From Rhodocyclaceae bacterium (GTDB taxonomy: Bacteria; Pseudomonadota; Gammaproteobacteria; Burkholderiales; Rhodocyclaceae), in contig VMSX01000009.1 in NCBI GenBank assembly GCA_013791905.1, forward strand, positions 124,001 to 188,000: 64,000 nucleotides of DNA, read 5' to 3'. This document shows positions 867-62,666 of this stretch, in pieces. Each line of letters starts with the position of its first letter. Within the stretch, counting starts at the first letter, position 1. The position numbers and the translations under genes are program-made. Under the pieces are notes generated by a model. It ran no database searches. It had not been told where the DNA came from and saw only the letters and a list, made by a program, of their open reading frames with translations.

Positions 867-2936
867 ATGAAAACACCGAAACTCATTGCCATTGCCGGTG
901 GTGCCGTGCTGCTGGTTATCGTCGTCTTGATGGGCGTGTTGCTGGCCAGTTTCGATGCCGCGCGTCTCAAGAGCGAACTGACGGCCGCAGTGCAGGAGCA
1001 GACCGGCCGCAAACTGAAGATTGACGGCGATCTGTCACTGAGTTTCTGGCCCAATGTCGGCGTGAAAATCGGCCGCACGACGCTGTCGGAGCGGGATGGT
1101 GACGCCAGTTTCGCCTCACTCAACAGCGCGCGTGTTTCAGTTGCGGTGCTGCCCCTGCTGTCGAAACAGGTGGTGGCCAAAACAGTAGAGATCAGCGGAC
1201 TTGATGTCACTGTGATCAAGCGGCGGGACGGCACCCACAATATCGATGATCTGATGATCGGCAAACCGCCGGGCAAGAAAGTCGGCGTGACCGAAGGACA
1301 TCCCCGTGGGACTGGCGAGACGGCGCAATCCGCCACGCCGCTGGTTGTTGCCATTGCTGGCATTAATATTTCCGACGCTGCGCTGACCTGGCGTGATGAG
1401 CGCTCCGACAGTACCCTGAAGGTGGCCGATCTTGATCTGACCACGGGCAACATTGCGCTGGACACGGGCCGGCGCATGCTAAACGTTGCCGGCTTGACAC
1501 TGATTGCGCAAGGTAATGCCGACGCAGTGGGCAACGCCGAAAGTTTTGTTTTGCGGCTTGACGCCCCAAGCCTGACGCTCTCTCCGGAGCGTTCCGGCGG
1601 GCAGGCCGTGACGCTGACGGTCCGTCTCGATGGGGGCGGGGGCAGGCGCACCGTCAATGCCACACTGGAACTCACCGGCCTCGCGCTGCAAGCCGAGGCG
1701 ATCTCCGCAAATGAGCTAGCCCTCACCTTCGACGCGCATCTCGCCACCACTGCTGTGAAGGCCCGGCTTGCCGCCCCGCTATCAGTCAATCTGGCGAAGC
1801 AGGCTTTCGCCATTGAGAATCTGGCCGGCCAGTTGACCATTGTCCATCCCGATATGCCGATGAAGTCATTGAAGCTGCCACTCACGGGCAGTCTGCATGC
1901 CAATCTTACGAAAGCCACTGCCGCGCTCAGCCTGGACTCCCGGCTCGATGATTCGCCCATCGCCCTGCGGATTGATGCTGCGGATTTGGCACCTTTGTCC
2001 CTGGCATTCGATCTCGCGATCGACCAGATTAATGTCGACCGATATCTTCCAGCGCGGAAGAACACGAAGGCCGCCAGCGACAAGCTCGATTTCTCCGCGC
2101 TGCGCGGCCTTGATGTGCGTGGTACGGTCAAGGTCGGCGCGCTGCAGGCCTCACAAGTGAAGATGCAGGACGTGCGCATGCAGGTGAAGGTGGCGGACGA
2201 CCGCCTCGATATCGCGCCGCACAGCGCAAAACTCTACGGCGGCAGCCTCGTTGGCGCGCTATCGGTCGAAGCCGACGGCAATCGTGTGCATCTCAAGCAA
2301 ACCCTGACCGGTGTGCAGATCCAGCCACTGCTGAATGACCTCGCCAACACGGACCTGCTGGCCGGGCGTGGCAACATTGCGCTGGACGTCACCACCCGGG
2401 GCGGCAGCGTCGATGAAATGAAAAAGGCACTGGCCGGCACCGCGAAAATCGCCCTGAAGGATGGCGCGATCAAGGGCATCAACCTCGCCCAGCGCTTGCG
2501 TGAACTGAAGGGAAAGCTTGCTGGCCGGCAGGACACGGTCGAGCCGGCCAGCGCCGACCGGCAGACCGATTTCTCCGAACTGACAGCTTCATTTCGCATT
2601 GCCGACGGCGTCGCCCACAACAACGACTTGCGGGCCAAGTCGCCGCTGTTGCGGCTCTCCGGCGCGGGCGACATCGACATCGGCAACAATCGCATCGACT
2701 ATCTGGCGAAAGCCAGTGTGGTCGCCACCAGCCGCGGTCAAGGCGGCAGCGACCTCGCCCACCTCAAGGGGCTGGCCATCCCGGTGCACCTGCACGGACC
2801 GCTCGACAGTCCGGCCTGGAACATCGAAGTCGCCGGTCTGGCCGGCGGCGCGGTGAAGGCGCGAGTGGAGGAAACCAGGCAGCAGGCCGCAGACAAACTT
2901 AAAGGTTCGCTCAAAGGCCTGTTGCAGAACCGCTAG
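867..2936 (+). CDS. AsmA family protein
   Basis: A 689-residue protein of the AsmA family, inner-membrane-anchored proteins with a long periplasmic beta-rich domain linked to outer-membrane assembly or lipid transport. An N-terminal membrane segment lies at about residues 5-27, followed directly by the typical FDAARLKSEL stretch and a GRKLKIDGDLSLSFWPNVG segment characteristic of the AsmA N-terminal domain. The C-terminal AsmA repeat region (about 480-640) carries the LKDGAIKGINLA motif. Residues 138-153 ([16 protein letters not shown]) are encoded by a long copy of dispersed element A and have no counterpart expected in the family. The ROK gene follows after 10 bases, so the two may be cotranscribed. 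Confidence 0.9.
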   Translation: MKTPKLIAIAGGAVLLVIVVLMGVLLASFDAARLKSELTAAVQEQTGRKLKIDGDLSLSFWPNVGVKIGRTTLSERDGDASFASLNSARVSVAVLPLLSKQVVAKTVEISGLDVTVIKRRDGTHNIDDLMIGKPPGKKVGVTEGHPRGTGETAQSATPLVVAIAGINISDAALTWRDERSDSTLKVADLDLTTGNIALDTGRRMLNVAGLTLIAQGNADAVGNAESFVLRLDAPSLTLSPERSGGQAVTLTVRLDGGGGRRTVNATLELTGLALQAEAISANELALTFDAHLATTAVKARLAAPLSVNLAKQAFAIENLAGQLTIVHPDMPMKSLKLPLTGSLHANLTKATAALSLDSRLDDSPIALRIDAADLAPLSLAFDLAIDQINVDRYLPARKNTKAASDKLDFSALRGLDVRGTVKVGALQASQVKMQDVRMQVKVADDRLDIAPHSAKLYGGSLVGALSVEADGNRVHLKQTLTGVQIQPLLNDLANTDLLAGRGNIALDVTTRGGSVDEMKKALAGTAKIALKDGAIKGINLAQRLRELKGKLAGRQDTVEPASADRQTDFSELTASFRIADGVAHNNDLRAKSPLLRLSGAGDIDIGNNRIDYLAKASVVATSRGQGGSDLAHLKGLAIPVHLHGPLDSPAWNIEVAGLAGGAVKARVEETRQQAADKLKGSLKGLLQNR
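1278..1325 (+). repeat. Element A, long form, in frame in asmA-like gene
   Basis: A 48-bp copy bounded by AAAGTCGGCG and GACGGCG with an internal TCCC-CGT-GGGA hairpin. It adds 16 codons in the K-V-G frame without disturbing the host frame. Confidence 0.85.
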
Positions 2937-2946
2937 GTCAAGCAAG

Positions 2947-3879
2947 ATGCGGATCGGCATTGACCTCGGCGGCACCAAGATCGAAATTGTCGCGCTGGCC
3001 GATGACGGCGCAGAACTGCTGCGCGAGCGCGTGCCGACGCCGCGCGGCGACTATCCAGCCACCGTCGCGACGCTTGCCGCACTGGTGCAGGCGGCGGAGC
3101 GGAAAGTCGGCGCTGGTGGGACGGCGGCAACGGTGGGCATCGGCATTCCCGGTGCGGAATCGCGGGTGACGGGGCTCATCAAGAACGCCAACTCGACCTG
3201 GCTGATCGGTCAGCCCTTGCGCCGCGATCTCGCTGCCGCGCTGGGCCGCCCGGTGCAGATCGCCAACGATGCCAACTGCTTTGCCTTGTCCGAGGCGACC
3301 GATGGGGCGGCGGCGGAGGCGGCGGTAGTGTTCGGGGTGATTCTCGGCACCGGCGTCGGGGGCGGCATCGTCGTGCGCGGCGAGGCGATCGTCGGTGCCA
3401 ACGCTATCGCCGGCGAGTGGGGGCACAACCCCTTGCCCGGTGACGAGCCGTTTCGTCCCGCCTGTTACTGCGGTCGCAGCGGTTGCGTCGAGACCTTTCT
3501 CTCCGGGCCGGGGCTGGCCGCCGATCATCGCCGCGCAGTGGGCAACCACACCGCCGCCGGCCTCGCGGCAGAAGAAATTGCCGCGCGCGCCGCGGCGGGC
3601 GACCCGGCCTGCGAAGCCACCCTGCAACGCTACGAGGCGCGGTTGGCGCGCGCCCTGGCGCAGGTCATCAACATCCTCGACCCTGAGGTAATTGTGCTCG
3701 GCGGCGGTCTCTCCGCGCTCGACCGGTTGTATGATCGCGTGCCCCGGCTGTGGGGTGCGCAGGTATTTTCGGATGCGGTCGCCACGCGGCTGGTGAAAAA
3801 CCGTCACGGCGATTCATCCGGTGTACGCGGCGCCGCCTGGCTGTGGCCGCAAGCCGTGCCAGGCCCGGCAAAACAATAA
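2947..3879 (+). CDS. ROK family sugar kinase
   Basis: A 310-residue ROK-family kinase, a cytoplasmic enzyme that phosphorylates a hexose such as fructose, glucose or N-acetylglucosamine. The N-terminal phosphate loop IDLGGTK starts at residue 5. The catalytic region carries NDANCF, GTGVGGGI and EWGHNPLPG. The zinc-binding CYCGRSGC follows near residue 178, and the C-terminal LGGGL loop is present. Length is normal for the family. Residues 53-60 (KVGAGGTA) come from a short element A copy placed before the VGIGIPG strand. The substrate is not determined by the motifs. The gene sits between the AsmA-like and thioredoxin-like genes on the same strand. Confidence 0.92.
   Translation: MRIGIDLGGTKIEIVALADDGAELLRERVPTPRGDYPATVATLAALVQAAERKVGAGGTAATVGIGIPGAESRVTGLIKNANSTWLIGQPLRRDLAAALGRPVQIANDANCFALSEATDGAAAEAAVVFGVILGTGVGGGIVVRGEAIVGANAIAGEWGHNPLPGDEPFRPACYCGRSGCVETFLSGPGLAADHRRAVGNHTAAGLAAEEIAARAAAGDPACEATLQRYEARLARALAQVINILDPEVIVLGGGLSALDRLYDRVPRLWGAQVFSDAVATRLVKNRHGDSSGVRGAAWLWPQAVPGPAKQ
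3103..3126 (+). repeat. Element A, short form, in frame in ROK kinase gene
   Basis: A 24-bp copy encoding KVGAGGTA in the sense K-V-G frame, located in a surface-loop position between two conserved segments of the kinase. Confidence 0.8.
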
Positions 3880-8522: not shown

Positions 8523-8573
8523 CGCCGTCCCGCCAGTCCCGAAAAAGGGATTTCCTTCGGTCACGCCGACTTT
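8523..8573 (-). repeat. Element A, long 51-bp form, at the priA stop codon
   Basis: A minus-strand copy whose first bases overlap the priA stop, which reads TGAAAGTCGGCG. The internal hairpin has the larger loop TCCC...TTTTTC...GGGA. Its right end meets the IS91-like remnant. Confidence 0.85.
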
Positions 8574-10552
8574 CAGAATTCCTGCGGATCGACATCCAGA
8601 TGCCAGCGCAACTCGCGAGGTGTCTTGAGGGCGTAAAGGCGCGGCATCCAGTCGGCGAGAAAGCTTTGCAGCGCCGGGCGACTTTTCGATTCGACCAGCA
8701 GCTGGGCGCGTTCGCGGTTTTTCAGCCGCGCCATGCGCATCGGCACCGGATCGTAAAGCATGATGTCGGGCGCCCCGAGTGCTTCGGCGCTGGTGACCGC
8801 CGTGGCGAGAAATTCGAGTGCCTGCGGCAAGGCCGGCGCTTCGGCGCGCAGCAGGGCCTGGAAGGTAAAGGGGGGAAAGCCAGCCACAGCGCGCTCGGCC
8901 AGTTGCTCATTGGCGAAGGCGCTGTAGTCGTGGTTGATCAGGGCGCGATAAAGCGGGTGGTCGGGGTATTCGGTCTGGATCAGCACGGCGCCGGGCAGGT
9001 GGGCGCGGCCGGAGCGGCCGCCGACTTGCATTAATTGTGCGAACAGACGTTCCGGTGCGCGGAAATCGGCGGCGAACAGGGCGGCATCGGCACCGACCAC
9101 GCCTACCAGCGTGAGTTTGGGGAAGTCATGCCCCTTGGCGAGCATCTGGGTGCCGACGAGCATGTCGGCCTCGCCGGCATGGATGGCGGCCAGCAGGGCA
9201 TGCCATTTTTTCGGCGAATCGGCCGAATCGCGATCGATGCGCAGGATGCGCGCCGTCGGAAAACGTTCGGTCAGGGCAACTTCAAGTCGTTGGGTGCCGC
9301 GGCCGAAGGGTTGCAGGTCAAGGTTGCCGCAGTCAGGGCAAGTATGCGGGATGGCCACTTCAAGCCCGCAATGGTGGCAGCGCAGGCGGCGGTCGGCAAG
9401 GTGCAGCACCATATTGGCAGCACAGCGGCGACAGTGTGAAATCCAGCCGCAGGCGGGGCAGGCCAGCACGGGGGCGTAGCCGCGGCGGTTGAGGAAGAGC
9501 AGGCTCTGCTCGCCTTTTTCCAGCCGCGCGCCGACGGCGGCAAGCAGCGCGGCGGAAAGCCCGTCCTGCAACTTCTCCTTGCGCGTGTCGACCGTGGCGA
9601 CCGTCGGCATGGCGGCGGCGACGGCGCGCAGCGGCAGGTCGAGCTTGCGGTAGCGACCACAGCTGGCGTGGTGGAAGGTCTCCAGGGACGGCGTGGCAGA
9701 ACCCAGCACGATCGGGATGGCGCGCTGCTTGGCGCGGAAGATGGCGACATCGCGCGCCGAGTAGCGCAAGCCCTCCTGCTGCTTGAAGGAGGCGTCGTGT
9801 TCTTCATCCACGACGATCAATTGCAGTGCCGGCAGCGGCATGAATACTGACAGGCGCGTGCCCAGTACGATGGCGGCGCGCCCTTCGAGGGCGGCGAGAA
9901 AGGCCCGGGTGCGCGCCGCATCGCCCACGCCGCTGTGGGCCGCAACGATGTGTGCGCTGGGGAAGCGCGCGCTGACACGGGATTCGAGTTGCGGTGTCAG
10001 TGCTATTTCCGGCACGAGCATCAGCGCCTGGCCTCCACGCTCAAGCACCGCCGCGATGGCGCGCAGATAAACCTCGGTCTTGCCGCTGCCGGTGACGCCA
10101 TGTAGCAGGAAAGTCTGGAAGCCGGACGCGGCGGTGATCGCATCGATGGCAATGACTTGATCCGGCATGGCGACCGGCAAAGTCGGCGCTGGTGGAACGG
10201 CGCCCGCCTTGTCTTTCAGCATCCGCGGCTTCTTGCCGCGCCGCAACAGCGGCGGCAGGGCGAAAGTGACGACCTGGCCGAGCGGATAGTGGTAGTAGCG
10301 GGCGCAAAAGCCGCATAACTCCAGCCAGTCGGCCGGCAGCGCTGGCAGATCGTCGATGAGTTCGGCAGCTTTCAGTTTTTCGGCCGGCTGGTCGCTGGTA
10401 GTAGCTTCGCCAACCACCACACCGAACCGGACGCCCCGACCGAAGGGCACCCTGACCAGTCGCCCGACCAGGTTGCCCTGACTTTCACCCGCCAGCCGAT
10501 AGTCGAACAGGCGCGGCAACGGTACGTCAAGGGCGATTTGCAGGATGGTCAC
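8573..10552 (-). CDS. priA: Primosomal protein N' (replication restart helicase PriA)
   Basis: A 659-residue PriA, the 3'-to-5' DNA helicase that reloads the replisome at stalled forks. The N-terminal 3'-DNA-binding region is short. Walker A GVTGSGKTEV lies near residue 155 and Walker B DEEH near 247. The paired zinc-binding cysteines follow at CPACGWISHCRRC and CHHCGLE...CPDCG, then the helicase motifs GTQMLAKGHDFP and QVGGRSGRA. The start is GTG at 10552. Residues around 120 (AVPPAPTL) are encoded by the antisense face of an element A copy in the linker before the helicase core. The stop codon overlaps another element A copy. Confidence 0.95.
   Translation of the reverse strand: MTILQIALDVPLPRLFDYRLAGESQGNLVGRLVRVPFGRGVRFGVVVGEATTSDQPAEKLKAAELIDDLPALPADWLELCGFCARYYHYPLGQVVTFALPPLLRRGKKPRMLKDKAGAVPPAPTLPVAMPDQVIAIDAITAASGFQTFLLHGVTGSGKTEVYLRAIAAVLERGGQALMLVPEIALTPQLESRVSARFPSAHIVAAHSGVGDAARTRAFLAALEGRAAIVLGTRLSVFMPLPALQLIVVDEEHDASFKQQEGLRYSARDVAIFRAKQRAIPIVLGSATPSLETFHHASCGRYRKLDLPLRAVAAAMPTVATVDTRKEKLQDGLSAALLAAVGARLEKGEQSLLFLNRRGYAPVLACPACGWISHCRRCAANMVLHLADRRLRCHHCGLEVAIPHTCPDCGNLDLQPFGRGTQRLEVALTERFPTARILRIDRDSADSPKKWHALLAAIHAGEADMLVGTQMLAKGHDFPKLTLVGVVGADAALFAADFRAPERLFAQLMQVGGRSGRAHLPGAVLIQTEYPDHPLYRALINHDYSAFANEQLAERAVAGFPPFTFQALLRAEAPALPQALEFLATAVTSAEALGAPDIMLYDPVPMRMARLKNRERAQLLVESKSRPALQSFLADWMPRLYALKTPRELRWHLDVDPQEF
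10179..10202 (+). repeat. Element A, short form, antisense within priA
   Basis: A 24-bp copy on the + strand inside the minus-strand priA gene. The gene reads it as AVPPAPTL, a Pro-rich linker. Confidence 0.75.
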
Positions 10553-13292: not shown

Positions 13293-13675
13293 GTGGCCCG
13301 CCCCCTTCGACGCCCGCCCCCCTTCGCCCCCCTCTCGGGGGGTTCTTTACTGCTCGCTTCGCTCGAATATCACGGGGCGCATTATTTTTACTGAGGTGCG
13401 GGTTGCGGCTTTCGCCGCGTGCCGTCTCGCCTTGGGGCGGCCCGGCGGCGCGACTGCTTGGTTAGGGTTGCAGGTTTGAAAGTCGGCGCTGGCTAGACGG
13501 CGTTAAATCCACACCCACCGCAGCGTTTGCGCCGGGCCGCCCCAAGCAAACGCGGCACGCGGCGCCAGCCGCAATCCGCACTACAGCCTGATCAAAGCTC
13601 CCCGTGATAAACGAGCGCAGCGAGTCAACAGTCACCTCCCCCGCGGGGGAGCCGGGAGGGGGCGGGCGCCGAAAT
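13293..13675. repeat. Inverted pair of element B copies around one element A
   Basis: This noncoding gap lies between convergent pfkA and trkH. Element B runs forward at about 13296-13460 (GCTCGCTTCGCTCG, ATCACGGGGCGC, TTGGGGCGGCCCGGCG) and inverted at about 13520-13675 (CGGGCCGCCCCAAGC, CTCCCCGTGATAAACGAGCG, CCCCGCGGGGGAG). A 24-bp element A lies at 13479-13502 between them. The whole can fold into a large cruciform or hairpin and may serve as a two-way transcription barrier. No other gene is seen. Confidence 0.75.
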
Positions 13676-22170: not shown

Positions 22171-23494
22171 GCGTGGCGGAGGGCAGTAGTTGTAATTCCG
22201 GGGCATCACTCCCCGTCGGCCGGCGACGGGAATCCGGGTGGCGCGCCACGAAGGCGCGCATCTGATCGTCGTTTTCTTGCGGAAAGACAGAACAAGTACA
22301 GTAAAGCATTTTGCCACCCGGGGCGAGCAGAGGCCACAAAGCATCGAGGATTGCCGCCTGGGTGCGTACGAATCCCGCCACATCGGCGGGGCGTCGCAGC
22401 CACTTGATGTCGGGGTGACGCCGCACCACGCCAGAGGCCGAACAGGGCACATCGGCCAGGATGCGGTCAAAGCGTTGGCCATTCCACCAGGCAGCGGGCT
22501 GGCATGCGTCACCGACCAGTAATGTTGCGCTCAGACCGAGGCGTTGCAGATTCTGTTCGATGCGCGTCGACCGCTGCGGGTCGAGTTCGAGTGCGGTCAG
22601 CTGTACAGTGGCATGCTCAAGGATGTGGGCTGTCTTGCCGCCGGGTGCGGCGCAGGCATCCAGTACGCGCTGGCCGTCTGATAGGTCGAGCAGGGTGGCG
22701 GCATGTTGCGCTCCCCAGTCCTGTACGGACACCCTGCCCTCGGCGAAACCCGGCAAACGTTCGACCGGTAGCGGCTTGTCGAGCAACAGCGCCGTGTCGT
22801 CGAGGACTTGGGCCTTGATCCCGGCGGCAGCCAGTTCCTGCGCGTAATAGTCGGCGCTGGGCCGCCCCAAGCCGACGTCTCCCCCGTGGGGGGCAGCGAG
22901 CCGGGTTTGCGAGCGTGGGGGGCTAATAAAGTCGGCGCTGGTGGTACGGCGCCGATTGATGCGCAGGCACAGTGGCGGATGCGAGTTGCCGGCTGCGGCG
23001 ATCTCTTCCCAGCGTGCCGGGTAGACTTCCCGCAAGGCATCCAGCCACCAGGCCGGATGCCGCCAGTGCGCGACAGCGTCGGCATCCGCGGCCGTCAGCA
23101 GGTCGTCGCGCTGACGCAGGAAGTTGCGCAGCACGGCATTGGTCAACCCCTTGAGCCGCCCCCCCGCGATACCAGCGGCGGCCCCGACAGCCTGATCCAC
23201 AATGGTGTGCGCATCTTCCGGTCGCCGCTCCAGTCGTGCCAACGCCACCAGCAACAGGGCGCGAATTCCGGTTTCCTTGAGTGGTTTGCTCAGCAGACGG
23301 CCAAGCAGAAAGTCGCCGCGCCCAAAGTCGCGCAGGGTCGTGTACGCGAGGTCAAGCGTGGCCGGGCGGAGGGGAAGGGCGGTTTGCGCCAGGGTTGCAT
23401 CGGGTGTCCGGCCCGCCAGGACTGCGGCAACGATCCGTGCCGCCGACCCCAGTGAATCAGACAGACCGGGCTGGATGCGGGGTGGCGTGGTCAT
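22130..23494 (-). CDS. rsmB: 16S rRNA (cytosine-967-C5) methyltransferase
   Basis: A 454-residue RsmB/Sun with an N-terminal NusB-like RNA-binding domain (about 15-150) and a C-terminal SAM-dependent methyltransferase. Motifs seen are [42 protein letters not shown] (catalytic PC Cys) and the second Cys in [13 protein letters not shown]. Between INRRR and [12 protein letters not shown], about 30 extra residues ([19 protein letters not shown], then [12 protein letters not shown]) are encoded by a composite of elements A and B. This lies in the linker between the domains and keeps the frame. The start overlaps the fmt stop by 4 bases. Confidence 0.93.
22848..22951 (+). repeat. Composite A-B-A repeat inserted in rsmB
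   Basis: A partial element A (AGTCGGCGCTGG, near 22849-22860) is joined directly to an element B segment (GCCGCCCCAAGC...GCGAGCGTGGGG). This is followed by a full element A at 22928-22951. The whole insertion is in frame on the rsmB strand. Confidence 0.75.
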
Positions 23495-24450
23495 CCGCCA
23501 AGATGGCTTGCCTCGCCGGACAGCGCTGCCGGCAGGACGAAACCTTGGCCGACGCTAACCGGAGAGCCGTGCAAAAAGTCGGCGCTGGCGAGACGGCGGC
23601 CACCGGGTTTTTGCAGCTCAATCAATCTGAGAGCTCCCGTGCCACAAGCAACCGTGATGCCGGCGGGACTGACGGCGAGGATAGTGCCGGGCCCACCCGC
23701 GCCGATCTCCGGTAGTGCGCGCCAGACTTTGATGGTGGTTTCGCCCAGTTGCGCCGTGGCACCCGGAAAGGGATCGAAGGCGCGGATACGCCGCTCGATG
23801 AGCGCCGCGGGGAGCCGCCAGTCGATCGCCGCTTCGGCCTTGGCGATCTTGTTGGCGTAGGTCACACCAGCGGCGGGTTGCGCAACCGGTTTCAGTGTTT
23901 CGAACTCGCGCAGTGCGAGAACGATCAGCCGGCTGCCCAGGATTGCCAGCTTGTCGTGCAGTGTTGCCGCCGTTTCGCCAGCGCCGACTTGAATCGAATG
24001 CGCCAGCAGCATGGGGCCGGTGTCGAGGCCGGCTTCCATCTGCATGATGGTTACGCCGGTTTCGGCATCGCCCGCCTCGATACACCGCTGAATCGGCGCC
24101 GCCCCGCGCCAGCGCGGCAGCAGCGAGGCATGGATGTTGAGACAGCCGTGCCGGGGGATGTCGAGCACCGCCTGCGGCAGGATCAGGCCGTAGGCGGCGA
24201 CCACCAGCAGATCGGGCGCCGCTTCGATGAGCGGGGCATGGGTGGCGGGGTCCTTGAGCCTTTCCGGCTGATGGACGGGGATGCCCTCTGCCAGCGCCAG
24301 CTGTTTGACCGGACTGACCACCAGCTTTTGCCCGCGTCCGGCCGGTCGGTCCGGCTGGGTCAGCACCAGCGCAATTTCGAAGCCGGCGGCAATCAGCGCC
24401 CGCAACGCGACCGCGGCGAATTCGGGCGTTCCGGCAAAGGTGATTTTCAT
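23491..24450 (-). CDS. fmt: Methionyl-tRNA formyltransferase
   Basis: A 319-residue enzyme that formylates initiator Met-tRNA using 10-formyl-tetrahydrofolate. It has the N-terminal [16 protein letters not shown], the catalytic Asn/His region [20 protein letters not shown], and the Asp in [15 protein letters not shown]-terminal tRNA-binding domain follows ([17 protein letters not shown]). Two element A copies lie here. One encodes QVGAGETA where the family normally has a similar-length loop before LHDKLA. The other encodes RRLASADF near the C-terminus. It sits in the classic def-fmt-rsmB order, translationally coupled to rsmB. Confidence 0.95.
23575..23598 (+). repeat. Element A, short form, antisense in fmt 3' region
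   Basis: A 24-bp copy with the full consensus (AAAGTCGGCG...GACGGCG). The fmt gene reads it as RRLASADF, ahead of its last 25 residues. Confidence 0.8.
23968..23991 (-). repeat. Element A, short form, sense in fmt
   Basis: A copy with about 22 of 24 consensus bases encoding QVGAGETA in the same K/Q-V-G frame used by the other sense copies. Family alignment from memory suggests little or no length change here, so part of the match could be host sequence. Confidence 0.6.
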
Positions 24451-26297: not shown

Positions 26298-27395
26298 GTG
26301 AGCGGTGAGATCGCTGCCTGGCTGCGGCTGACCCTGATCCCTGGCATCGGGGGCGAGACGCAGCGGCAACTCCTGAAAGCCCTGGGCGACCCCGAGGCGA
26401 TTTTTTCTGCACCCTCCGCTGTCATGCGCGGCGTCCTCGGGGCGGGTCTGGTGGATCGCCTGCGCAGCCATGATTGTCGCGCCGAAGTTGCGGCCGCCCT
26501 AGCCTGGGCAGAGCAACCCGGCAACCATATTTTGACGCTGGCCGATGCCGCCTATCCGCAGGCGCTGCTGACCGCTGCCGACCCGCCCGTACTGCTCTAT
26601 GCCAAGGGCGACATCGGCTTGCTGAATCGCCCGGGCTTCGCCGTTGTTGGCAGCCGCAATGCGACAAAACAGGGTGAAATGAATGCCGAGGCCTTTGCCG
26701 CGACGCTCTGCGCGGCTGGCTTTGTCGTCGTCAGCGGGCTGGCGGCAGGTATCGATGCGGCAGCGCACCGCGGCGCACTCGCCGCCACGGGGATGGGCGC
26801 CACCATTGCCGTCATTGGCACCGGCATTGACCGCATTTACCCGGCACGCAATGAAGCCTTGGCGCGTGAAATCGGTGCGCACGGGGTGATCATCAGCGAA
26901 TTTCCCCTCGGCACGCCACCGCTGCCGGCCAATTTCCCGCGCCGCAACCGCCTGATTGCCGGGCTGGGGCAGGGCTGCCTGGTGGTGGAGGCAGCACGCC
27001 AGAGCGGCTCATTGATCACAGCGCGGCTGGCGGCCGAGGCCGGCCGCGAAGTGTTCGCCATCCCCGGGTCGATTCACTCCCCCCAGGCTAAAGGCTGCCA
27101 CGCCCTCATCAAGCAGGGCGCCAAGCTGGTCGAGTCGGCGCAGGATATTCTGGAAGAACTGGGATGGGGCCGCGGGATTGCCGCCGTATCGCCAACGCCG
27201 ACTATTGATGCCGCGGCATCCGGGAGCGAAGAAGACCCCATCCTGCGCGCCATGGGCCATGATCCATGTGATCTCGACACCCTTGCCACCCGCAGCGGGC
27301 TACCCCCTGAAACCCTGCTGGCCCGCCTGTTGCCCCTTGAACTGGATGGCCGGATTGCCCCCTTGCCGGGGGGGCGCTACCAGCGGCTTGGCTGA
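26298..27395 (+). CDS. dprA: DNA-processing protein DprA
   Basis: A 365-residue DprA/Smf that binds incoming single-stranded DNA and loads RecA in natural transformation. The SAM-like N-terminal part precedes the Rossmann-type core with VVGSRNATKQGE, SGLAAGIDAAAHRGAL, TGIDRIYPARN and the FPRRNRLIAGL motif. A winged-helix domain ends the protein (about 300-365). The linker between core and winged helix (AVSPTPTI) is the antisense face of a degenerate element A. The start is GTG. The smg gene often found between dprA and topB in relatives is absent, and element B occupies that gap. Confidence 0.94.
   Translation: MSGEIAAWLRLTLIPGIGGETQRQLLKALGDPEAIFSAPSAVMRGVLGAGLVDRLRSHDCRAEVAAALAWAEQPGNHILTLADAAYPQALLTAADPPVLLYAKGDIGLLNRPGFAVVGSRNATKQGEMNAEAFAATLCAAGFVVVSGLAAGIDAAAHRGALAATGMGATIAVIGTGIDRIYPARNEALAREIGAHGVIISEFPLGTPPLPANFPRRNRLIAGLGQGCLVVEAARQSGSLITARLAAEAGREVFAIPGSIHSPQAKGCHALIKQGAKLVESAQDILEELGWGRGIAAVSPTPTIDAAASGSEEDPILRAMGHDPCDLDTLATRSGLPPETLLARLLPLELDGRIAPLPGGRYQRLG
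27182..27205 (-). repeat. Degenerate element A in dprA linker
   Basis: Minus-strand match AATAGTCGGCGTTGGCGATA then CGGCGG, within a few bases of the short consensus. The gene reads it as AVSPTPTI. Confidence 0.55.
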
Positions 27396-32385: not shown

Positions 32386-32981
32386 TCCTTTATTTTCATG
32401 GCTTTACCAGCGGTCCGGAGTCACGCAAGGTGCAGGCGTTGGCATCCAGGATGGCTGAGCGGGGTATCGCCGACCAGTTGATCTGCCCGCAATTGCCGGC
32501 TTCGCCGGCCGCCGCCATCGCGCTGGCCGATCAAATCATCACTGCAAAAGTCGGCGTGACCGAAGGAAATCCCCGTGGGACTGGCGAGACGGCGACTCTG
32601 ATGGGGTCTTCCCTTGGTGGCTTCTATGCGACCCATCTCGCGGAAAAGCATCGTCTCAATGCGGTGCTGATCAACCCCGCCGTGGTTGCCGCGCTCGAAC
32701 TGGAACGCTATCTGGGCCCGCAGACCTGGCTGTACAGCGGCGAACCCTTCGACTTCACGCGCCAGCACATCGACGAACTGGCCGCCCTTGAAGTGCCAGT
32801 GCTGGCAGACCCGGCGCGTTACTGGCTGCTCGTTGAGGAGGGTGACGAAACCCTGGATTACCGGCAAGCCGTGGCCCGTTATGCCGGCGCCCGCCAGACC
32901 GTGCTGCCGGGAGGCGATCACAGCTTCACGCGCTGGGACGACTATCTTGACGAGGTGCTGGCATTTGCCGGTCTGAAGTGA
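32370..32981 (+). CDS. YqiA/YcfP-like alpha/beta-fold esterase
   Basis: A small alpha/beta hydrolase of about 203 residues. It opens with [16 protein letters not shown] (oxyanion strand) and has the nucleophile elbow [14 protein letters not shown], a late Asp (EEGDETLDY) and the His of [12 protein letters not shown], a full Ser-Asp-His set. TTG at 32370, inside the end of uppP, is the only suitable start close to the conserved first strand. Just before the nucleophile strand, [16 protein letters not shown] is encoded by a long element A copy; relatives have a short loop there. The stop overlaps the next gene by 4 bases (GTGA). Confidence 0.82.
32547..32594 (+). repeat. Element A, long form, in frame in esterase gene
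   Basis: A 48-bp copy differing from the asmA copy at one base. It inserts 16 codons directly before the TLMGSSLGG nucleophile strand. Confidence 0.88.
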
Positions 32982-33850: not shown

Positions 33851-34653
33851 GCTTCGACCCGCGCCAGATGAAGCGCATCGAGCGCGATGGCTACAACCTG
33901 ATCGGTGCGCGCTATGCCGCCGGCGCAGCGGCGCGGACGGCGCTGACAGATGCCCTGATCGAGGCTGCCCACCTGCAGCCAAATCAGAACGTGCTCGACC
34001 TCGCCGCCGGCCCCGGACTGCTGGCCAGTGCGGCCAGAGAGAAAGTCGGCGCTGGCGGAACGGCGATTGCCACCGACCTCGCCGAAGCGCAGCTGGCCTG
34101 CTGCCCCGGCCTGCCCCGGGTGGCCGCCGACGGCGAATATCTTCCATTTGTGAGCAATCACTTCGACCGCGTGCTTTGCGGGCTGGGTCTGATGGTATTT
34201 CCGGATACGGCGCGGGCACTGGCCGACGCGCGCCGCGTCATGGCGCCGGGCGGCATGATTGCCCTCTCGGTCTGGGGTGAGGCCGAGCACACCCCCCTGC
34301 TCGCCTGTGCGCTCGATTGCATGAAACGCCTGCTGCCAGCCCCGAAGGTGGCCCGGCCTTCGGTGTTCCGCTTTGGCACGACTGCCGCGCTCGGTGCGCC
34401 CCTTGCTGAAGCTGGCTTCGGTGAGATTGCCATCGAGACGATCATGATCGACAGCTATTTCGCCGATGCCGCCAGCTATTGGCAGGCCTTTCTCGACCTA
34501 GCCGGCGGTGCGGCGGGCAGTCTGGCGCGCCAGCCCGAGAGCATGCAGCAGCGTCTGGCCACCGAAGTCGCCCAGGAGTTGTCCGTCTTTGCCGGCGCAG
34601 ATGGCTACGCCATGCAAAGTGCCGTGCTGATCGCCACGGCGACCAGGAAATAA
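33847..34653 (+). CDS. Class I SAM-dependent methyltransferase
   Basis: A 268-residue methyltransferase with the SAM-binding motif VLDLAAGPGLLASAA near residue 52, acidic ATDLAEAQL and a motif IV-like FDRVLCGLGLMVFPD. It resembles UbiE/COQ5-type or small-molecule enzymes; the substrate is unknown. The stretch between motif I and the acidic strand (KVGAGGTA) is an element A copy, at a place where many relatives carry a similar K/R-V-G-x-G-G loop. The ATG overlaps the rarD stop. A strong hairpin terminator shared with the convergent porin gene follows. Confidence 0.85.
   Translation: MSFDPRQMKRIERDGYNLIGARYAAGAAARTALTDALIEAAHLQPNQNVLDLAAGPGLLASAAREKVGAGGTAIATDLAEAQLACCPGLPRVAADGEYLPFVSNHFDRVLCGLGLMVFPDTARALADARRVMAPGGMIALSVWGEAEHTPLLACALDCMKRLLPAPKVARPSVFRFGTTAALGAPLAEAGFGEIAIETIMIDSYFADAASYWQAFLDLAGGAAGSLARQPESMQQRLATEVAQELSVFAGADGYAMQSAVLIATATRK
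34042..34065 (+). repeat. Element A, short form, in methyltransferase gene
   Basis: A 24-bp copy in the sense K-V-G frame directly after motif I of the methyltransferase. Confidence 0.7.
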
Positions 34654-38835: not shown

Positions 38836-40017
38836 ATGACCACCCAATCTGCCGATGCTGTCAGCATGGCCCTGTTCTGCGATTTCGAAAACATCGCGCT
38901 CGGCGTGCGCGACGCCCAGTATGAAAAGTTCGACATCAAACCGGTGCTGGAACGACTGCTGCTCAAGGGCAGCATCGTCGTCAAGAAGGCTTATTGCGAC
39001 TGGGATCGCTACAAGGCTTTCAAGGCCCCGATGCACGAGGCGAACTTCGAACTGATCGAAATTCCGCATGTGCGCCAGTCCGGCAAGAACTCCGCCGACA
39101 TCCGCATGGTGGTCGATGCGCTCGACCTCTGTTACACCAAGGCGCATGTCAATACCTTCGTCATCATCAGCGGCGACTCGGATTTCTCGCCGCTGGTTTC
39201 CAAGTTGCGCGAAAACAACAAACGCGTGATCGGCGTCGGCGTCAAGCAATCGACCTCCGACCTGCTGATTGCCAACTGCGACGAATTCATCTACGTCGAT
39301 GATCTGGTGCGCCGCCGCCAGCGCGAGGTGGCCGACAAGCAGAACCGCCGCCCGCCCAATGTTGTCGATCCGCAGCAACAGGAAGCGCGGCGCCTCAAGG
39401 GTCTCGACATGGCGGCCGCCACGCTCGAAGCCCTGCTCGAGGATCGCGACGACGACGAGCGGGTCTGGGCCTCGGTGCTCAAAGAAGCCATCAAGCGCCG
39501 CAACCCCGGCTTCAACGAAACCTATTTTGGCTACAAGACCTTTGGCGCCATGCTCGAAGATGCCGACAAGCGCGGCCTGCTCGAATTCGGCCGCGACGAG
39601 CGTTCGAGCGCCTATGCCAAGCGCCGGGTTTCCGGCGCAGCGCCGCATATTCTTGAAGAGGGGGCCGCTGACGCCGTAGCGCCAGCGCCGACTTTTGCCG
39701 AAACGACCGTGATTGCCGAACCGGTGGAGCCGGCCGCCAGCGCCGAAGCCGCTCCGGCGGCGGAGGTGAATCGGCGGCGGCGTGGTCGGGGTCGCAAGCC
39801 GCAACCCGAGAGCATGCAGGCGCTTAACGGCAATGTGCCTGCGCCGACAGTTATTCCCGATGCGGAGCAGCCGGCAACACCACCCGCTGCCGCACCGCAG
39901 GCGGATGCCACGCAAGCCAAGCCCCCAAAGTCCCCACGCCCCAGGCAGCCGCGCGCCCAGACACCCCGCAAGCCGCGCACCAGCAAACCAAAAAAGACGC
40001 CAAGCGGGGAGTCGTAA
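38836..40017 (+). CDS. NYN domain protein with OST-HTH/LOTUS module
   Basis: A 393-residue protein. The N-terminal NYN (LabA-like, PIN-fold) domain has the acidic nuclease residues in [26 protein letters not shown] and [17 protein letters not shown], so a metal-dependent RNase is likely. Residues about 195-265 ([38 protein letters not shown]) match the OST-HTH/LOTUS RNA-binding module. The C-terminus is Pro/Ala-rich and basic ([12 protein letters not shown]) and includes an antisense element A (AVAPAPTF). RNA processing or decay is inferred. It lies between tonB-like and aroE with close spacing. Confidence 0.88.
39672..39695 (-). repeat. Element A, short form, antisense in NYN gene tail
   Basis: A 24-bp copy on the minus strand. 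The gene reads AVAPAPTF in its disordered C-terminal region. Confidence 0.7.
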
Positions 40018-42757: not shown

Positions 42758-43644
42758 GATGTTGTCCTCCGATGAGTCGAAGCAGAAAAGCGGGTCGTGA
42801 AACGGAATACGTCGAGCGCACAAACTTCGATACAGCGACCGCAGTTGGTGCATTCGGGGTCTTTGATGAGGGGTGAGCCGTCGCCCTTGAGGGCGGGGCG
42901 GATCACCTGTGGTTCCGGACACACGGTGAAACAATCCATGCAATCGTCACAGGCAGCGCGCTTGGCTGCGGAGACGCGTGGCACGGCCGTGCGATTGAGC
43001 AGCGCGTAGGTGGCGCCCATCGGGCAGAGGTGCCCGCACCAGCCACGGCTGGCCACCAGCAGGTCGTAGAGAAAAATCCCCAGCACCACCAGCCAGCCGA
43101 AGCCCATGCCGAAGATCAGGCCGCGGTGGAGCATCGATACCGGATTGACGAACTCCCAGACCATATTACCGGTCACGAATGCGGTAACGAGCAAGCTACC
43201 CAGCAACCAGTAACGCGTCGAGGCAGCCGGCGCGCGACCACCCTTGATGCCCAGCTTGCGCCGCAACGCGGCAGCGGCGTCGGTAATCGGGTTGACCGGG
43301 CAGACCCAGGAACAGAACACGCGCCCGCCGACCAGGAGATAGAAGGCAACGACAATCGCGACACCAATCAGCGCATCCTGGTAAGGCATGTAGCCGGCAG
43401 CCCAAGACTGCATGATCAGCAGCGGGTCGGTCAGCGGCAGTACGCCTAGTGTCATCGAGGAGGACAGGTTGCCCGTGACGATCCAGATGCCGAACCAGGG
43501 GCCGAGCAGGAACAGGCCAAGAATTCCGGCCTGCGACATGCGCCGCAACAGCAACCACTTGCCCCAGCGCAGCCGGGCGAAGAAAGTCGGCGCTGGTACG
43601 ACGGCGTCAGTCGTGTTGCCGGGGGCGGCGCTGGCCTTTTCCAT
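42754..43644 (-). CDS. napH: Quinol dehydrogenase membrane component NapH
   Basis: A ferredoxin-type membrane protein of about 296 residues that works with NapG to move electrons from quinol towards NapA. Four helices, two CxxxCP motifs (FCSWVCPVNP, WCGHLCPMGA), and two C-terminal 4Fe-4S clusters (CDDCMDCFTVCP, CTNCGRCIEVCA) are seen. An ATG 12 bases upstream (43656) is an alternative start; 43644 overlaps the napG stop. The cytoplasmic N-terminus contains VVPAPTF from an antisense element A copy, just before the conserved LRWGKWLLLRR. Confidence 0.94.
   Translation of the reverse strand: MEKASAAPGNTTDAVVPAPTFFARLRWGKWLLLRRMSQAGILGLFLLGPWFGIWIVTGNLSSSMTLGVLPLTDPLLIMQSWAAGYMPYQDALIGVAIVVAFYLLVGGRVFCSWVCPVNPITDAAAALRRKLGIKGGRAPAASTRYWLLGSLLVTAFVTGNMVWEFVNPVSMLHRGLIFGMGFGWLVVLGIFLYDLLVASRGWCGHLCPMGATYALLNRTAVPRVSAAKRAACDDCMDCFTVCPEPQVIRPALKGDGSPLIKDPECTNCGRCIEVCALDVFRFTTRFSASTHRRTTS
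43583..43606 (+). repeat. Element A, short form, antisense in napH
   Basis: A 24-bp copy; the gene reads AVVPAPTF in its N-terminal tail. The paralogous napH of the second operon lacks it. Confidence 0.78.
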
Positions 43645-52868: not shown

Positions 52869-53399
52869 ATGAAGAAAACTATCACGATGGTTGCTATGTC
52901 ACTTGCCGCTGCACTGTTATTTGGCGCTACCCAACTACATGCGCAGCAACTGGACGGCGTAAAGTCCATGCGCGGTTCTGGTGTGGCTGCCGACGACAAG
53001 GCTGATGCGCTCAAGCTGTATGGTGGCGCCAATCCCGGCCAGCAACGAGCCCTTTATCGCTCCATCACAGACCAGCCGCCAATGATCTCGCATGCCTTAC
53101 CCGGCTTCGACAAAATCACACTCACTGAAAACCAGTGCATGATCTGCCACAGCGTCGAGAATTACGAAAAAAGAGCAACGCTCAAGTTCGGCGATAGCCA
53201 AATAAATTTGGTCGACATCCGGAAAAAAGCGAGCAAGGTCAGCGATAGTCACATGACACAGGTCAGCGTTCCTGGCGGCGGCAAGAAAAATGTGTTGGAC
53301 ATGGCGCGCTGGCAGTGCGATAGCTGCCACGTGCCGCAAGTCGATGCCAATCCGCTGGTCGACACAACCTTCAAAGGGGGGCGCATCGCCAAGCAATGA
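52869..53399 (+). CDS. napB: Periplasmic dihaem cytochrome c NapB (operon 2)
   Basis: A NapB of about 176 residues. The signal peptide TMVAMSLAAALLFGATQLHA begins at the ATG at 52869, preceded by GGAGATGATC. Two haem sites CMICH and CDSCH and the PPMISHALPGF block are present. It is longer than NapB1 by an N-terminal insert and a Lys-rich stretch between the haems. Its stop (TGA) is overlapped by an element A copy. Confidence 0.93.
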   Translation: MKKTITMVAMSLAAALLFGATQLHAQQLDGVKSMRGSGVAADDKADALKLYGGANPGQQRALYRSITDQPPMISHALPGFDKITLTENQCMICHSVENYEKRATLKFGDSQINLVDIRKKASKVSDSHMTQVSVPGGGKKNVLDMARWQCDSCHVPQVDANPLVDTTFKGGRIAKQ

Positions 53400-53422
53400 A
53401 AGTCGGCGCTGGCGAGGTGGCG
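53399..53422 (+). repeat. Element A, short form, at the napB2 stop codon
   Basis: The stop reads TGAAAGTCGGCG, exactly as at the priA stop; the TGA supplies the first A of the element. The right half is slightly diverged (GAGGTGGCG). Confidence 0.78.
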
Positions 53423-55238: not shown

Positions 55239-55289
55239 TAAGTCGGCGTGACCGAAGGAAATCCCCTTTTCGGGACTGGCGGGACGGCG
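55239..55289 (+). repeat. Element A, long 51-bp form, at the corA stop
   Basis: Begins at the TAATAAGTCGGCG junction with the corA stop. It has the large-loop hairpin TCCCC-TTTT-CGGGA, as in the copy at the priA stop. The rest of the gap to 55532 has no gene; it should hold the frd promoter, but no FNR-type site was found there. Confidence 0.85.
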
Positions 55290-58829: not shown

Positions 58830-58849
58830 CTTTCATGATGTGCGGGCTG

Positions 58850-59725: not shown

Positions 59726-60506
59726 CGCACAGCAGCCCCAGATAGAAGGCGAGTTCGGCCAGCTGTTGGGTCGCGCCAAGGCAGTCGCCCGTGTAGCCGC
59801 CGATGCGCCGGACGAAGTAACGTGCGGCGAGCAGCGTCACGGCGGCGACCAGCGCGAGGGCAATGGCAACCTGTGCGGCCGGCAGCAGCAGGCAGGGCGC
59901 GAGGCCAAACAGCGCGGCGACGGCGAGTTCGCCCTTGCCCAGGCGCGTGGCGAGCGGCTTCGATTTGGCCGAGTCGTCTTCGCGCGCATAGTCGAGCGTA
60001 TAAATCAATGTCGTGGAGGCGAAGCGCGACACGCTATGACCGGCGATCAGCATGGCCACAAAAGTCGGCGCTGGCGGGATGAAATGCCCCGCAGCGGGTA
60101 CGGCGACGAGTGCCGTCAGCGCCTCGAACTTCGTCAGCAACGCCATGCCGATGCCGATCGCGCCGTAGCTGCCGATGCGCGAATCCTTCATGATCGCGAG
60201 CACCTGTTCCTTCGTCCATCCCCCACCGCAGCCGTCGATACTGTCGGCGAGCCCGTCCTCGTGGAATGCGCCCGTAGCGAGCAGCGTCGCCGCCATGCCG
60301 GCGAGCACGGCGATCGCCGGCGGCCACAGCTGCAGGGCCGCAAGCGTAACCGCCGCGCCGATGGCGCCGATGATGATGCCGATTGCCGGGAAGTAGCGCG
60401 CGGCGTGGTTGAGCTGCGCCGCCGAATGACCAACCCAGCCCGGCACCGGCAGTCGCGTGAAGAAGCGCAGCGCGGCGAAGAAGTATTCAGCTTCTCTGCG
60501 AATCAT
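59655..60506 (-). CDS. cobS: Adenosylcobinamide-GDP ribazoletransferase
   Basis: A 283-residue integral membrane enzyme joining alpha-ribazole to adenosylcobinamide-GDP. The N-terminal [14 protein letters not shown] and the metal-site block [19 protein letters not shown], then [13 protein letters not shown], are diagnostic. A central loop reads IPPAPTF from an antisense element A. The last about 20 residues ([20 protein letters not shown]) are encoded by an element B copy, so the native C-terminus seems to have been replaced. The ATG overlaps the cobT stop. Confidence 0.93.
60061..60084 (+). repeat. Element A, partial, antisense in cobS
   Basis: The left 19 bases match (AAAGTCGGCGCTGGCGGGA); the right end has diverged. 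The gene reads PPAPTF in a loop between membrane segments. Confidence 0.6.
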
Positions 60507-61570
60507 AGTTTGTCGGAAACGTTCGCCGACTCGAAGCTCGCCATCTCATTGAGGAAGGCGCATGCCGCGCGCACCAGCGGCCAGGCCAGCGCCGCGCCGG
60601 TGCCTTCGCCGAGCCGCAGGTCGAGTGACATGAGTGGCGCAACATTCAGCGCGGCCAGTTGCGTGCGATGGCCCGCTTCGGCCGAGGCGTGGCAAAACGC
60701 GGCGTAGTCGAGAAAGGCGGGTTGCAATCTGGCCGCGACCAGCGCCGCCGCACCGCAGATGAAGCCGTCGACCAGCACCAACATTCGCTGCCGCGCCGCC
60801 GCCAGCATGGCGCCTGTCATCATCGCAATCTCGAAGCCGCCGAACTGCGCGAGCACGGCGAGCGCATCGTGGCGCGATCCGGCGTAGCGTGACAAGGCTT
60901 GACGCAGCAGCAGCTTCTTGCGCGCCAGACCGGTATCGTCCAGCCCGGTGCCGCGTCCGACACAGTCATCGAGTGGCGCATCCGTCAGGCAATGTGTCAG
61001 CAGCGCGGCGGATGCCGTGTTGCCGATGCCCATTTCGCCGAAGCCGATGACCTCGCAACCCGTCGCCGCGAGTTTGGCGACGATGTCCGTGCCACGCGCC
61101 ATGGCGGTATCGCGCTGGGCCGCTGTCATCGCCGCGCCATCAAGATAGCTCGCCGTCCCGCCAGTCCCCCGGGGATTTCCTTCGGTCACGCCGACTTTTG
61201 CGTCGACGAGATTGCTCCGCACGCCAAAGTCGTGCGCCACGCCAGCATCGACCACCGTGAGGGCAATGCCGTTGGCGCGGGCGAACACGTTGATCGCCGC
61301 GCCGCCGGCGAGAAAATTCTCGACCATCTGCCAGGTCACCTCCTGCGGAAAGGCGGAGATGCCGGATCGGGCGGCGCCGTGGTCGCCGGCAAAAACGACG
61401 AGGTGCGGCTGGTTCAAAGTCGGCGTCAGCGAGCCGCGCACCAGGCCGATCTGCAGGGCGAGCTCCTCCAGCCGGCCGAGGCTGCCGGGCGGCTTGGTCT
61501 TGTTGTCGATCTTGTGGCGCAGTCCGGTTTCCAGACTGCGGTCGAGCGGGGGTATTGCGAGGGAATGCAT
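60503..61570 (-). CDS. cobT: Nicotinate-nucleotide-dimethylbenzimidazole phosphoribosyltransferase
   Basis: A cytoplasmic enzyme of about 355 residues making alpha-ribazole 5'-phosphate. It has [15 protein letters not shown] near residue 22, [30 protein letters not shown], and the glycine-rich [16 protein letters not shown] with a late [12 protein letters not shown] at 61570 is chosen because GGAAGG lies 9 bases upstream; the ATG at 61579 abuts it. After VDAK a long element A adds [16 protein letters not shown] where relatives have a short loop. It is the first gene of cobT-cobS-cobC and lies under a cobalamin riboswitch. Confidence 0.95.
61151..61198 (-). repeat. Element A, long form, sense in cobT
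   Basis: A 48-bp copy in the K-V-G frame. The local host sequence (DAK...GTASYL) resembles the element ends, suggesting insertion at a matching site. Confidence 0.85.
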
Positions 61571-61638: not shown

Positions 61639-61654
61639 GCCACAGGTTTCATGA

Positions 61655-61821: not shown

Positions 61822-61829
61822 TTCCCCCC

Positions 61830-62387
61830 ATGAACGAACTCATCATCGGCGGCGCCCGTTCGGGCAAGAGCGCCTTCGCCGAAGCACAGGCGCTGGCCTC
61901 CGGCCAGCGCGTCATCTACGTCGCCACCGCGCAGGCGCGGGACGCCGAAATGGCGCGGCGCGTCGCCCACCACCAGGCCCGCCGCCCGGCCGCCTGGCGC
62001 AGCATCGAAGCACCGCTGCGGCTGGCCGAAACGCTGGGTGCGCAAGCGGCGCCCGACACCTGCCTGCTGGTCGATTGCCTGACGCTGTGGCTGTCCAACC
62101 TCTTCTTCGCCGGCAGTGCGGCACGCCAGGCCGAAGCGGACGAGGCCATCGCCTGCCCGCTGCTCGCCGGCGAGACGCAGGCCCTGCTCGACGCGCTGCC
62201 GGCGTTGCCCGGCCGCATCATCCTCGTCAGCAACGAAGTCGGCTGGGGCATCGTGCCCATGCACCCCGTCTCGCGGTTGTTCGCCGACGAGCAGGGGCGG
62301 CTCAACCAGCGCGTCGCCGCAGTCAGCGACCGCGTCACCCTGGTCGTGGCAGGGCTGCCGCTGGAACTTAAATCGACCCGGATTTGA
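61830..62387 (+). CDS. cobU: Adenosylcobinamide kinase / guanylyltransferase
   Basis: A bifunctional enzyme of about 185 residues that phosphorylates adenosylcobinamide and transfers GMP from GTP. The P-loop GGARSGKSAFAE starts at residue 7. The nucleotide-site His lies in RRVAHHQARRP, and LLVDCLTLWLSNLF and VSNEVGWGIVPMHPVSRLFA are conserved. ATG at 61830 starts directly at the first beta strand, as in relatives. It is divergent from cobT, so riboswitch control does not extend to it. Confidence 0.93.
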   Translation: MNELIIGGARSGKSAFAEAQALASGQRVIYVATAQARDAEMARRVAHHQARRPAAWRSIEAPLRLAETLGAQAAPDTCLLVDCLTLWLSNLFFAGSAARQAEADEAIACPLLAGETQALLDALPALPGRIILVSNEVGWGIVPMHPVSRLFADEQGRLNQRVAAVSDRVTLVVAGLPLELKSTRI

Positions 62388-62666
62388 AAACGGGTCCGGG
62401 CAAGGTACTTGGGGCGGCTTACTGAGTCCACCAGCCGTTCCAGCTTGTAGATTAAGCCCCGGACTGCGGAAGGAACTCGGCCAGAATTGGCGGTTGGAAA
62501 ACTTGGTGCTTGATCCGCTGGATGATCTTGGCTGGGATCGCTGAATCTGTTTCGCAAAACAGATAAGTCGGCGCTGGCATGACACCGGCAAAATCCATCT
62601 TTGTCCGGGAAGGTGTTTCCAGTAGAGTAGCGGGTTTGGCAATGCCAACCTAAAAAGCGCCAGCCC
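62388..62666. other. Gap before hsdM: unresolved remnant and element A
   Basis: On the minus strand (about 62575-62457) an open stretch reads PTYLFCETDSAIPAKIIQRI then KHQVFQPPILAEFLPQSGA and a stop. It looks like the end of a protein, but I do not recognise it; its 5' part is an element A copy (62564-62587). A hairpin TCTGTTT/AAACAGA lies next to it. This may be a scar at the border of the restriction-modification locus. Confidence 0.4.

Follow-up and report, generated by a model that had tools for sequence, protein, structure and literature searches.

A clade-restricted 24-bp motif in Rhodocyclales, putatively of the DNA uptake sequence type, and the small inserts nested within it

How does the same 24-bp sequence come to lie in many different protein genes of one genome while keeping their reading frames? 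The question arises from a 64,000-nucleotide stretch of a Rhodocyclaceae bacterium (C25:124001-188000, hereafter the window), in which an earlier note, made from the sequence alone, had described a dispersed repeat that invades genes. The source genome (G000) comprises 3.64 Mb in 30 contigs. The short form of the repeat is a 24-bp motif, AAAGTCGGCGCTGG-nnnn-ACGGC(G/A), in which two blocks surround four tolerant bases; the version of the source genome ends in ACGGCG. We propose that this short form putatively serves Rhodocyclales as a self-recognition motif comparable to DNA uptake sequences, a reading to which we assign a probability of roughly 0.57. Longer forms of the repeat carry a further layer of inserts.

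The dispersed in-gene repeat family described in the earlier note is real. At two or fewer mismatches, the 24-bp motif occurs 528 times in the source genome (267 and 261 copies on the two strands), whereas a reversed-pattern control gave 0. It is thus highly over-represented on both strands, as is expected of an uptake sequence. AAAGTCGGCGCTGG, again with at most two mismatches, was found 14 times in the window, whereas 100 shuffles gave 0.92 on average and never more than 3, and parts of the motif are the most frequent 12-mers in the examined stretches of G000, G017 and G002. All 19 places listed earlier were read. The motif finder recovered 18 of them as copies; the remaining one, at 22849, is a half copy, the left half-motif of an 81-bp insertion. 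The 24-mer folds no better than shuffled sequence (z -0.15; five forms, z -0.15 to -0.85) and contains no palindrome. A hairpin or known RNA family was rejected on these z-scores and because Rfam, at gathering thresholds, finds only a cobalamin riboswitch in the window.

Insertion and origin in place were distinguished by comparing 213 sites with pooled orthologous stretches. We kept 236 alignments from 97 sites in which both flanks had at least 60% identity; 476 of 712 alignments fell below this cut-off and were dropped. None of the 236 chromosomal alignments showed a clean empty site, in which 20 or more bases are missing at the motif. Instead, 151 were gapless, and their targets lay 0–10 mismatches (of 20) from the motif in a graded series. 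The proteins of ten outgroup genomes, with 0–6 copies each, provided a second comparison with 179 pairs covering the site (107 of 286 did not cover it and were left out). Here, 75 alignments were gapless, the net difference was two residues or fewer in 47 of the gapped ones, and a difference of exactly eight residues was seen in only 4 of the 179. Outgroup DNA at gapless sites had a mean of 10.2 mismatches to the 20 fixed motif bases, compared with 14.0 for an in-frame shifted control in the same genes; the 33 distinct outgroup segments had a mean of 10.9. In both comparisons, as in those of constraint and of the last base below, the sites are not independent, as one orthologous site recurs across genomes and in both directions.

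Individual proteins illustrate the same point. Fmt reads PIAADETA in G006, which has no copies, and QVGAGETA with the motif, while the residues RRLASADF are encoded in G006 as in motif-bearing genomes. In the CobT-type protein, the DAKV-ASGTASYL of G020 can be likened to the motif-bearing sequence, and outgroups G006, G020, G021, G025 and G036 encode K-V/I-A-x-G-T, one residue shorter. At several sites, therefore, motif-less outgroups carry the same or similar residues, an observation that the earlier note had itself named as speaking against invasion. Together, the alignments and the outgroups indicate that the short form arises in place at alignable chromosomal sites, from already similar sequence, by substitutions and small in-frame indels. 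This is how uptake sequences originate, in existing sequence and not by insertion; the two phage sites described below are exceptions.

These results bear on the view that the motif is a selfish mobile mini-element inserting itself in frame into genes. Rickettsia palindromic elements and the 24-bp short dispersed repeat SDR5 of Nostoc are examples of such elements. With 0 of 236 clean empty sites and 4 of 179 eight-residue differences, insertion is rejected as the main route of the short form into chromosomal genes, and the invasion claimed earlier finds no support there. Outgroup sites that are already motif-like, position-specific variability, a lineage-specific last base at shared sites and the lack of a palindrome also argue against a mobile element. 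It would account for the strong consensus with few intermediates, for the long forms, which are genuine inserts, for copies in phage genes, and for a motif block of about 30 bp that is present or absent at two phage sites, at one of them absent in five relatives. We do not favour mobility as the chief way into chromosomal genes, and as a general explanation we regard it as quite unlikely. The insertion-versus-substitution test was earlier applied to the uptake signal sequences (USS) of Pasteurellaceae by Redfield and colleagues, who obtained the same answer (PMC1626085). Their report states the paradox in similar terms: a strong consensus resembles a young transposon, yet the sequences did not arise by insertion.

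The pattern of constraint within the motif is specific to position. Its edges are sharp at positions 1 and 24, with little conserved flank beyond the 24 bp. Among 73 copies of the source genome picked by their left part, one base accounts for 62–75% at positions 15–18 and for 82–85% at positions 19–24. Where the flanks of orthologue alignments were 0.69 identical (n=53), identity was 0.81 at the fixed positions and 0.61 at positions 15–18; the corresponding values were 0.89 and 0.72 at a flank identity of 0.79 (n=65), and 0.91 and 0.79 at 0.90 (n=33). In the two more divergent bands, the fixed positions therefore exceed the flanks in conservation. Inserted copies that decay neutrally would not be expected to show such position-specific constraint.

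The last base of the motif tends to follow lineage, as do the dialects of uptake sequences. In pooled stretches it is mostly A in G002, G017 and G004, as well as in G001 and G013, which have few copies, and mostly G in G000, G005, G008, G009, G010 and G015. Perfect A-ended copies number 25 in G000, 41 in G008, 164 in G017 and 230 in G004. At shared sites, 28 of 30 cross-clade pairs have A at position 24 in the G002, G017 or G004 genome and G in the partner; the two exceptions pair G004 with the A-rich G001 and G013. Four copies in G002 share an altered centre, GCTT.

A concerted last base at shared sites and the four GCTT copies are also what a recombinogenic repeat would show if its copies converted one another ectopically and no uptake bias were involved. 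A 24-bp insert lying within the motif in 15 of 20 matches of the source genome (the other five are weak) would fit such spread as well. Conversion tracts, however, should carry flanks, whereas little flank is conserved here, and 24 bp is generally considered short for homologous recombination. We therefore judge gene conversion very unlikely.

Placement relative to genes was analysed for 182 copies in four stretches of three genomes, with frames from about 0.86 Mb and approximate gene calls based on codon usage, which chose the wrong antisense frame for the copy at 32547. Called genes contain 111 of the 182 copies (57 sense, 54 antisense) where 153 are expected, a mild depletion. The earlier note, which placed about two thirds of its copies inside conserved genes, is right in that many lie there, but these are fewer than expected. 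In-gene copies keep the host reading frame, as had been claimed. The single frame proposed for all sense copies did not survive beyond the window, where the three frames hold 40, 1 and 16 of the 57 sense copies, and 32, 19 and 3 of the 54 antisense ones. In 16 of 182 copies, compared with 0.3 expected, the motif starts between -1 and +2 relative to a stop codon; in the window, the copies at 8523 and 53399 begin with the final base of a stop codon, and the one at 55239 directly follows one. A role as inverted-pair terminators was rejected, as only two pairs within 60 bp occur among the 182 copies, both in the same orientation. Separately, one inverted motif pair, 8 bp apart, was seen on C4 of the source genome.

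The tolerant gap within a constrained sequence, as is known for protein sites, together with the occurrence on both strands and the clade-restricted dialects, could also reflect the binding site of a chromosome-maintenance protein kept by selection (a nucleoid protein, a Chi-type hotspot, or a replication or segregation motif). Motifs of the Chi or FtsK type would show strand or arm bias; no strand skew or arm bias was found among 63 copies along G002, and a strand-polar chromosome motif was rejected. Copies also occur in phage genes, and such motifs do not usually need as many as about 500 sites with 20 fixed bases each, as far as is generally known. A maintenance-protein site is thus unlikely.

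The motif is restricted to one clade. Among 61 genomes counted, 17 of 18 same-genus genomes carry 201–688 copies, the exception being G006 with 0, and high counts occur in two other genera (661 in G019 and 761 in G026). The remaining members of the family have 0–6 copies, and other families of the order have 0, with one exception at 4. When 369 genomes of the class were sampled, 11 including G000 had a match with one mismatch allowed, and none apart from G000 had more than two. Exact copies among the named matches listed belong mostly to Sulfuritalea, Rugosibacter, Sulfurisoma and Rhodocyclaceae or Rhodocyclales assemblies. Outside the clade, G022, G028, G034, G035, G036 and G047 contain one to three exact copies, perhaps in transferred DNA. 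We found no earlier description of the motif in the open-access literature among the matches listed, and the letters of its first part were absent from the searched full texts.

The machinery for DNA uptake is encoded in these genomes: of 61 examined, 55 have ComEC and 53 a member of the ComP_DUS family, the source genome included in both, and DprA lies in the window. The ComP_DUS-family pilin of the source genome maps to the region C4:263672-263959. If the short form acts as an uptake sequence, a receptor of the competence pilus would prefer DNA fragments bearing the motif, and these fragments would be taken up and recombined more often. Near-matches in the population would then converge on the motif wherever the host genes tolerate it, and this pull would act on either strand and in several reading frames. 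We infer this receptor, the uptake bias and the drive; the abundance, clade restriction, in-place chromosomal origin, constraint and dialects described above are observations. No report of natural transformation in Sulfuritalea was found in the open-access literature. In a pilin comparison of G000, G017 and G006, genes common to G000 and G017 (L281, L282) had no full-length partner in G006. They are leads only, since G006 is 87% complete and these pilin-like genes resemble, by eye, the pseudopilins of type II secretion. In L280 (G000) and L292 (G017), a pilin-like leader peptide contains AVPPAPTF, an antisense motif reading, shortly before GFTLTEM.

Several observations weigh against an uptake sequence. 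The mismatch spectrum (45, 26, 9, 8 and 5 copies at 0–4 mismatches, with no excess at 4–5) has few intermediates, so that stepwise mutation alone is not an obvious origin. The ratio of perfect to single-mismatch copies is 45:26 in the source genome, but 15:29 in G017 and G002 together. In 104 of the 179 outgroup alignments (58%) there is a gap within three residues of the motif; the outgroup segment is shorter by at least two residues in 61 of the 179, and by at least seven in 15 of those. In the USS test, gaps were reported in 115 of 474 alignments (24%) at 50% identity or more (PMC1626085), a stricter cut-off than ours, so that the two shares rest on different cut-offs. The contrast between positions 15–18 (67–78%) and 19–24 (78–86%) is weaker in 36 copies of G017 and G002 than in the source genome. 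As for the dialects, the 30 pairs stem from about six sites, 19 of them from fmt, and some G-type genomes keep 25–41 perfect A-ended copies. Spacing on contig C1 is near random and not significantly even (p 0.08). ComEC and ComP_DUS are about equally frequent in relatives with few or no copies. Finally, the 24 bp of the motif exceed the length of known uptake motifs, which is given as 9–13 nt, or 17 for the extended USS.

Phage genes add to these difficulties. At least 120 viral-contig stretches (L304-L423) carry exact motif copies, some of them within phage genes. The six viral frames checked match PHROGs, namely terminase large subunit (2), portal, transposase (2) and central tail fibre J; in terminase large subunits, for example, the motif lies close to the C-terminus, and in Mu-type transposases close to the N-terminus. 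By contrast, one study reports DNA uptake sequences (DUS) to be absent from recently acquired genes (PMC2397512). Beyond the copy by which each viral stretch was ascertained, the density is 0.057 per kb compared with 0.145 per kb in G000, about 0.4 of the chromosomal value. For viral and named loci, 251 alignments were kept (662 of 913 were dropped for flank identity under 0.6), and in six of these at least 20 bases are missing at the motif, five times in relatives of L384 and once in a relative of L403. A motif-containing block of about 30 bp in L384 is missing from L356, L387, L402, L407 and L422, with otherwise similar flanks; a block of the same size is present in one and absent from the other of L403 and L382. 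By eye, both sites adjoin the start of a putative DNA methyltransferase gene, just upstream of it or within it. Many new DUS without similar sequence in relatives are reported, probably having arrived by recombination (PMC2397512), so that block differences like those at the two phage sites occur in known systems too. In the phage terminase comparison, 6 of 79 relatives have the copy, which sits in a variable C-terminal tail where alignment cannot decide between insertion and substitution.

Two further features of the viral contigs were noted. L331:883-2239 contains five exact copies, the first four spaced 316 bp apart, and the terminase frame L359:3925-7302 on the minus strand has a long extra stretch that is absent from its relative L344 and looks intein-like by eye.

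The long forms, which carry inserts of 21–81 bp, reflect genuine insertion into motifs that were already there. AAAGTCGGCG is followed by inserts of 24 or 27 bp, the 21-bp insert precedes ACGGCG, and there are composite inserts of 42, 54 and 81 bp. All are blocks absent from orthologues, at sites where relatives have the whole motif. Invasion, as the earlier note had it, therefore stands for these inserts; at the two phage sites, too, a block with the motif is present or absent. In the source genome, the long form bearing the insert TGACCGAAGGAAATCCC...GGGA has 71 matches at three or fewer mismatches. In the stretches of this genome, the 24-bp piece itself has 20 matches at the same threshold, with the motif on both sides in 14, on one side in 1 and on neither in 5, which are weak matches. 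In G005 (L298-L303), one of 11 genomes searched, the 24-bp piece GACCGAAGGAAATCCC... occurs six times in the loop of a second dispersed repeat, GCCGGGCCGCCCCAAG, which identifies it as an independent mini-insert. The long forms may thus represent a second layer, in which very small mobile or copied inserts land inside existing motifs.

Both short and long forms occur in the window, as follows.

1278..1325, plus strand: long form of 48 bp in an asmA-like gene, with a 24-bp insert at 1288-1311.
3103..3126, plus strand: short motif, sense in a ROK-family gene.
8523..8573, minus strand: long form of 51 bp starting at the last base of the priA stop codon, with a 27-bp insert at 8537-8563.
10179..10202, plus strand: short motif, antisense in priA; in G008 a long form occupies this site.
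13479..13502, plus strand: short motif, with no called gene over the site.
22847..22951, plus strand: antisense in rsmB, a half motif followed by an 81-bp GGGCCGCCCCAAG-type insertion and a full motif at 22928-22951; G010 and G012 have only the 24 bp.
23575..23598, plus strand: short motif, antisense in fmt, at the RRLASADF residues shared with the copy-less G006.
23968..23991, minus strand: short motif, sense in fmt; equal length in outgroups G006, G020, G021 and G022 (0-2 genome-wide copies), and an 81-bp insertion in G008 and G015.
27182..27205, minus strand: short motif with 2 mismatches, antisense in dprA; length varies among relatives.
32547..32594, plus strand: long form in a yqiA-like (UPF0227) gene, with a 24-bp insert at 32557-32580; G009, G013 and G004 have the short motif there.
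34042..34065, plus strand: short motif, sense in a methyltransferase gene; G008 has a long form here.
39672..39695, minus strand: short motif, antisense in a NYN-domain gene.
43583..43606, plus strand: short motif, antisense in the open frame 42754-44454 of a 4Fe-4S protein.
53399..53422, plus strand: short motif, degraded, starting at the last base of the napB stop codon.
55239..55289, plus strand: long form of 51 bp immediately 3' of a corA-like open frame, with a 27-bp insert at 55249-55275.
60061..60105, plus strand: motif with a 21-bp insert at 60079-60099, antisense in cobS; the motif is uninterrupted in G009, at a flank identity of 95-97%.
61151..61198, minus strand: long form, sense in a cobT-like gene; G009 and G010 have the short motif.
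62564..62587, plus strand: degraded copy, with no called gene over the site.

Pfam identifies the host genes as AsmA, ROK, PriA, RsmB, Fmt, DprA, UPF0227, methyltransferase, NYN, a 4Fe-4S protein, CobS and a CobT-type phosphoribosyltransferase (DBI_PRT). Three of the earlier entries mark genuine copies and need correction in their form: the one at 60061 is a 45-bp form carrying the 21-bp insert, and those at 62564 and 53399 are degraded in their right part.

The second dispersed repeat has a constant loop, GCCGGGCCGCCCCAAG, and stems that vary by copy yet stay complementary (for example GTTTGC/GCAAAC and GCCTCC/GGAGGC). It lies in the window at 13431(-), 13535(+), 22860(+), 24489(+), 27469(+) and 59061(-), and has 43 matches in 464 kb of the source genome with one mismatch allowed, some of them by chance; Rfam gave no match for it in the window. 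Other repeats of 100-350 bp, at about 8157-8337, 13310-13667 and 58827-59100 of the window, have many matching places in relatives. The cobalamin riboswitch found by Rfam lies at 61647-61832 on the minus strand, upstream of the cobT-like gene.

One source names Neisseriaceae and Pasteurellaceae as the only families with known uptake motifs (PMC12616744), and for Campylobacter jejuni recognition is reported to depend instead on DNA methylation (PMC8468864). The Rhodocyclales motif might be a third independent origin of motif-specific uptake, in environmental bacteria, with the longest uptake motif known (24 bp in two blocks), with dialects, and with parasitic mini-inserts of 21–81 bp that target the motif and so spread in protein genes. 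We hold this wider proposal tentatively, at somewhat less than even odds. If it is true, a clade with so many sequenced relatives, and with intermediates still visible, could be used to test directly how such motifs originate and their dialects change, and whether they are maintained by selection or by drive. Hundreds of odd peptides in proteins of the clade (KVGAGxTA, AVPPAPTF, RRxASADF) would then be a by-product of a DNA code.

Among known systems, Rickettsia palindromic elements are palindromic insertions inside genes that keep the reading frame. The motif resembles them as a short in-gene repeat keeping frame, but the comparison, drawn in the earlier note, fails on structure, as the 24-mer is not palindromic and its short form is not a block insertion at the tested chromosomal sites. 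Repetitive extragenic palindromic sequences (REP) and the related REPINs are likewise short, numerous and dispersed; they are described as extragenic palindromes (PMC3733652, PMC3116915), whereas most of the 182 sampled motif copies lie in called genes. The DUS of Neisseriaceae are closer, with dialects reported to follow phylogeny (PMC3630211) and new copies reported to arrive by recombination (PMC2397512), as may hold for the two phage sites here. They differ in length (10–12 bp) and in forming inverted terminator pairs, which are rare for the motif. The USS of Pasteurellaceae have a 9-bp core (extended, 17) in place of 24 bp with a four-base tolerant gap, and the nested inserts are a feature of the motif described here. 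The likeness is nevertheless extensive in what is reported of them (PMC1626085): many copies, most of them in genes (956, or 65% of all, in coding regions), a strong consensus, an origin by substitution, and two dialects that divide by subclade.

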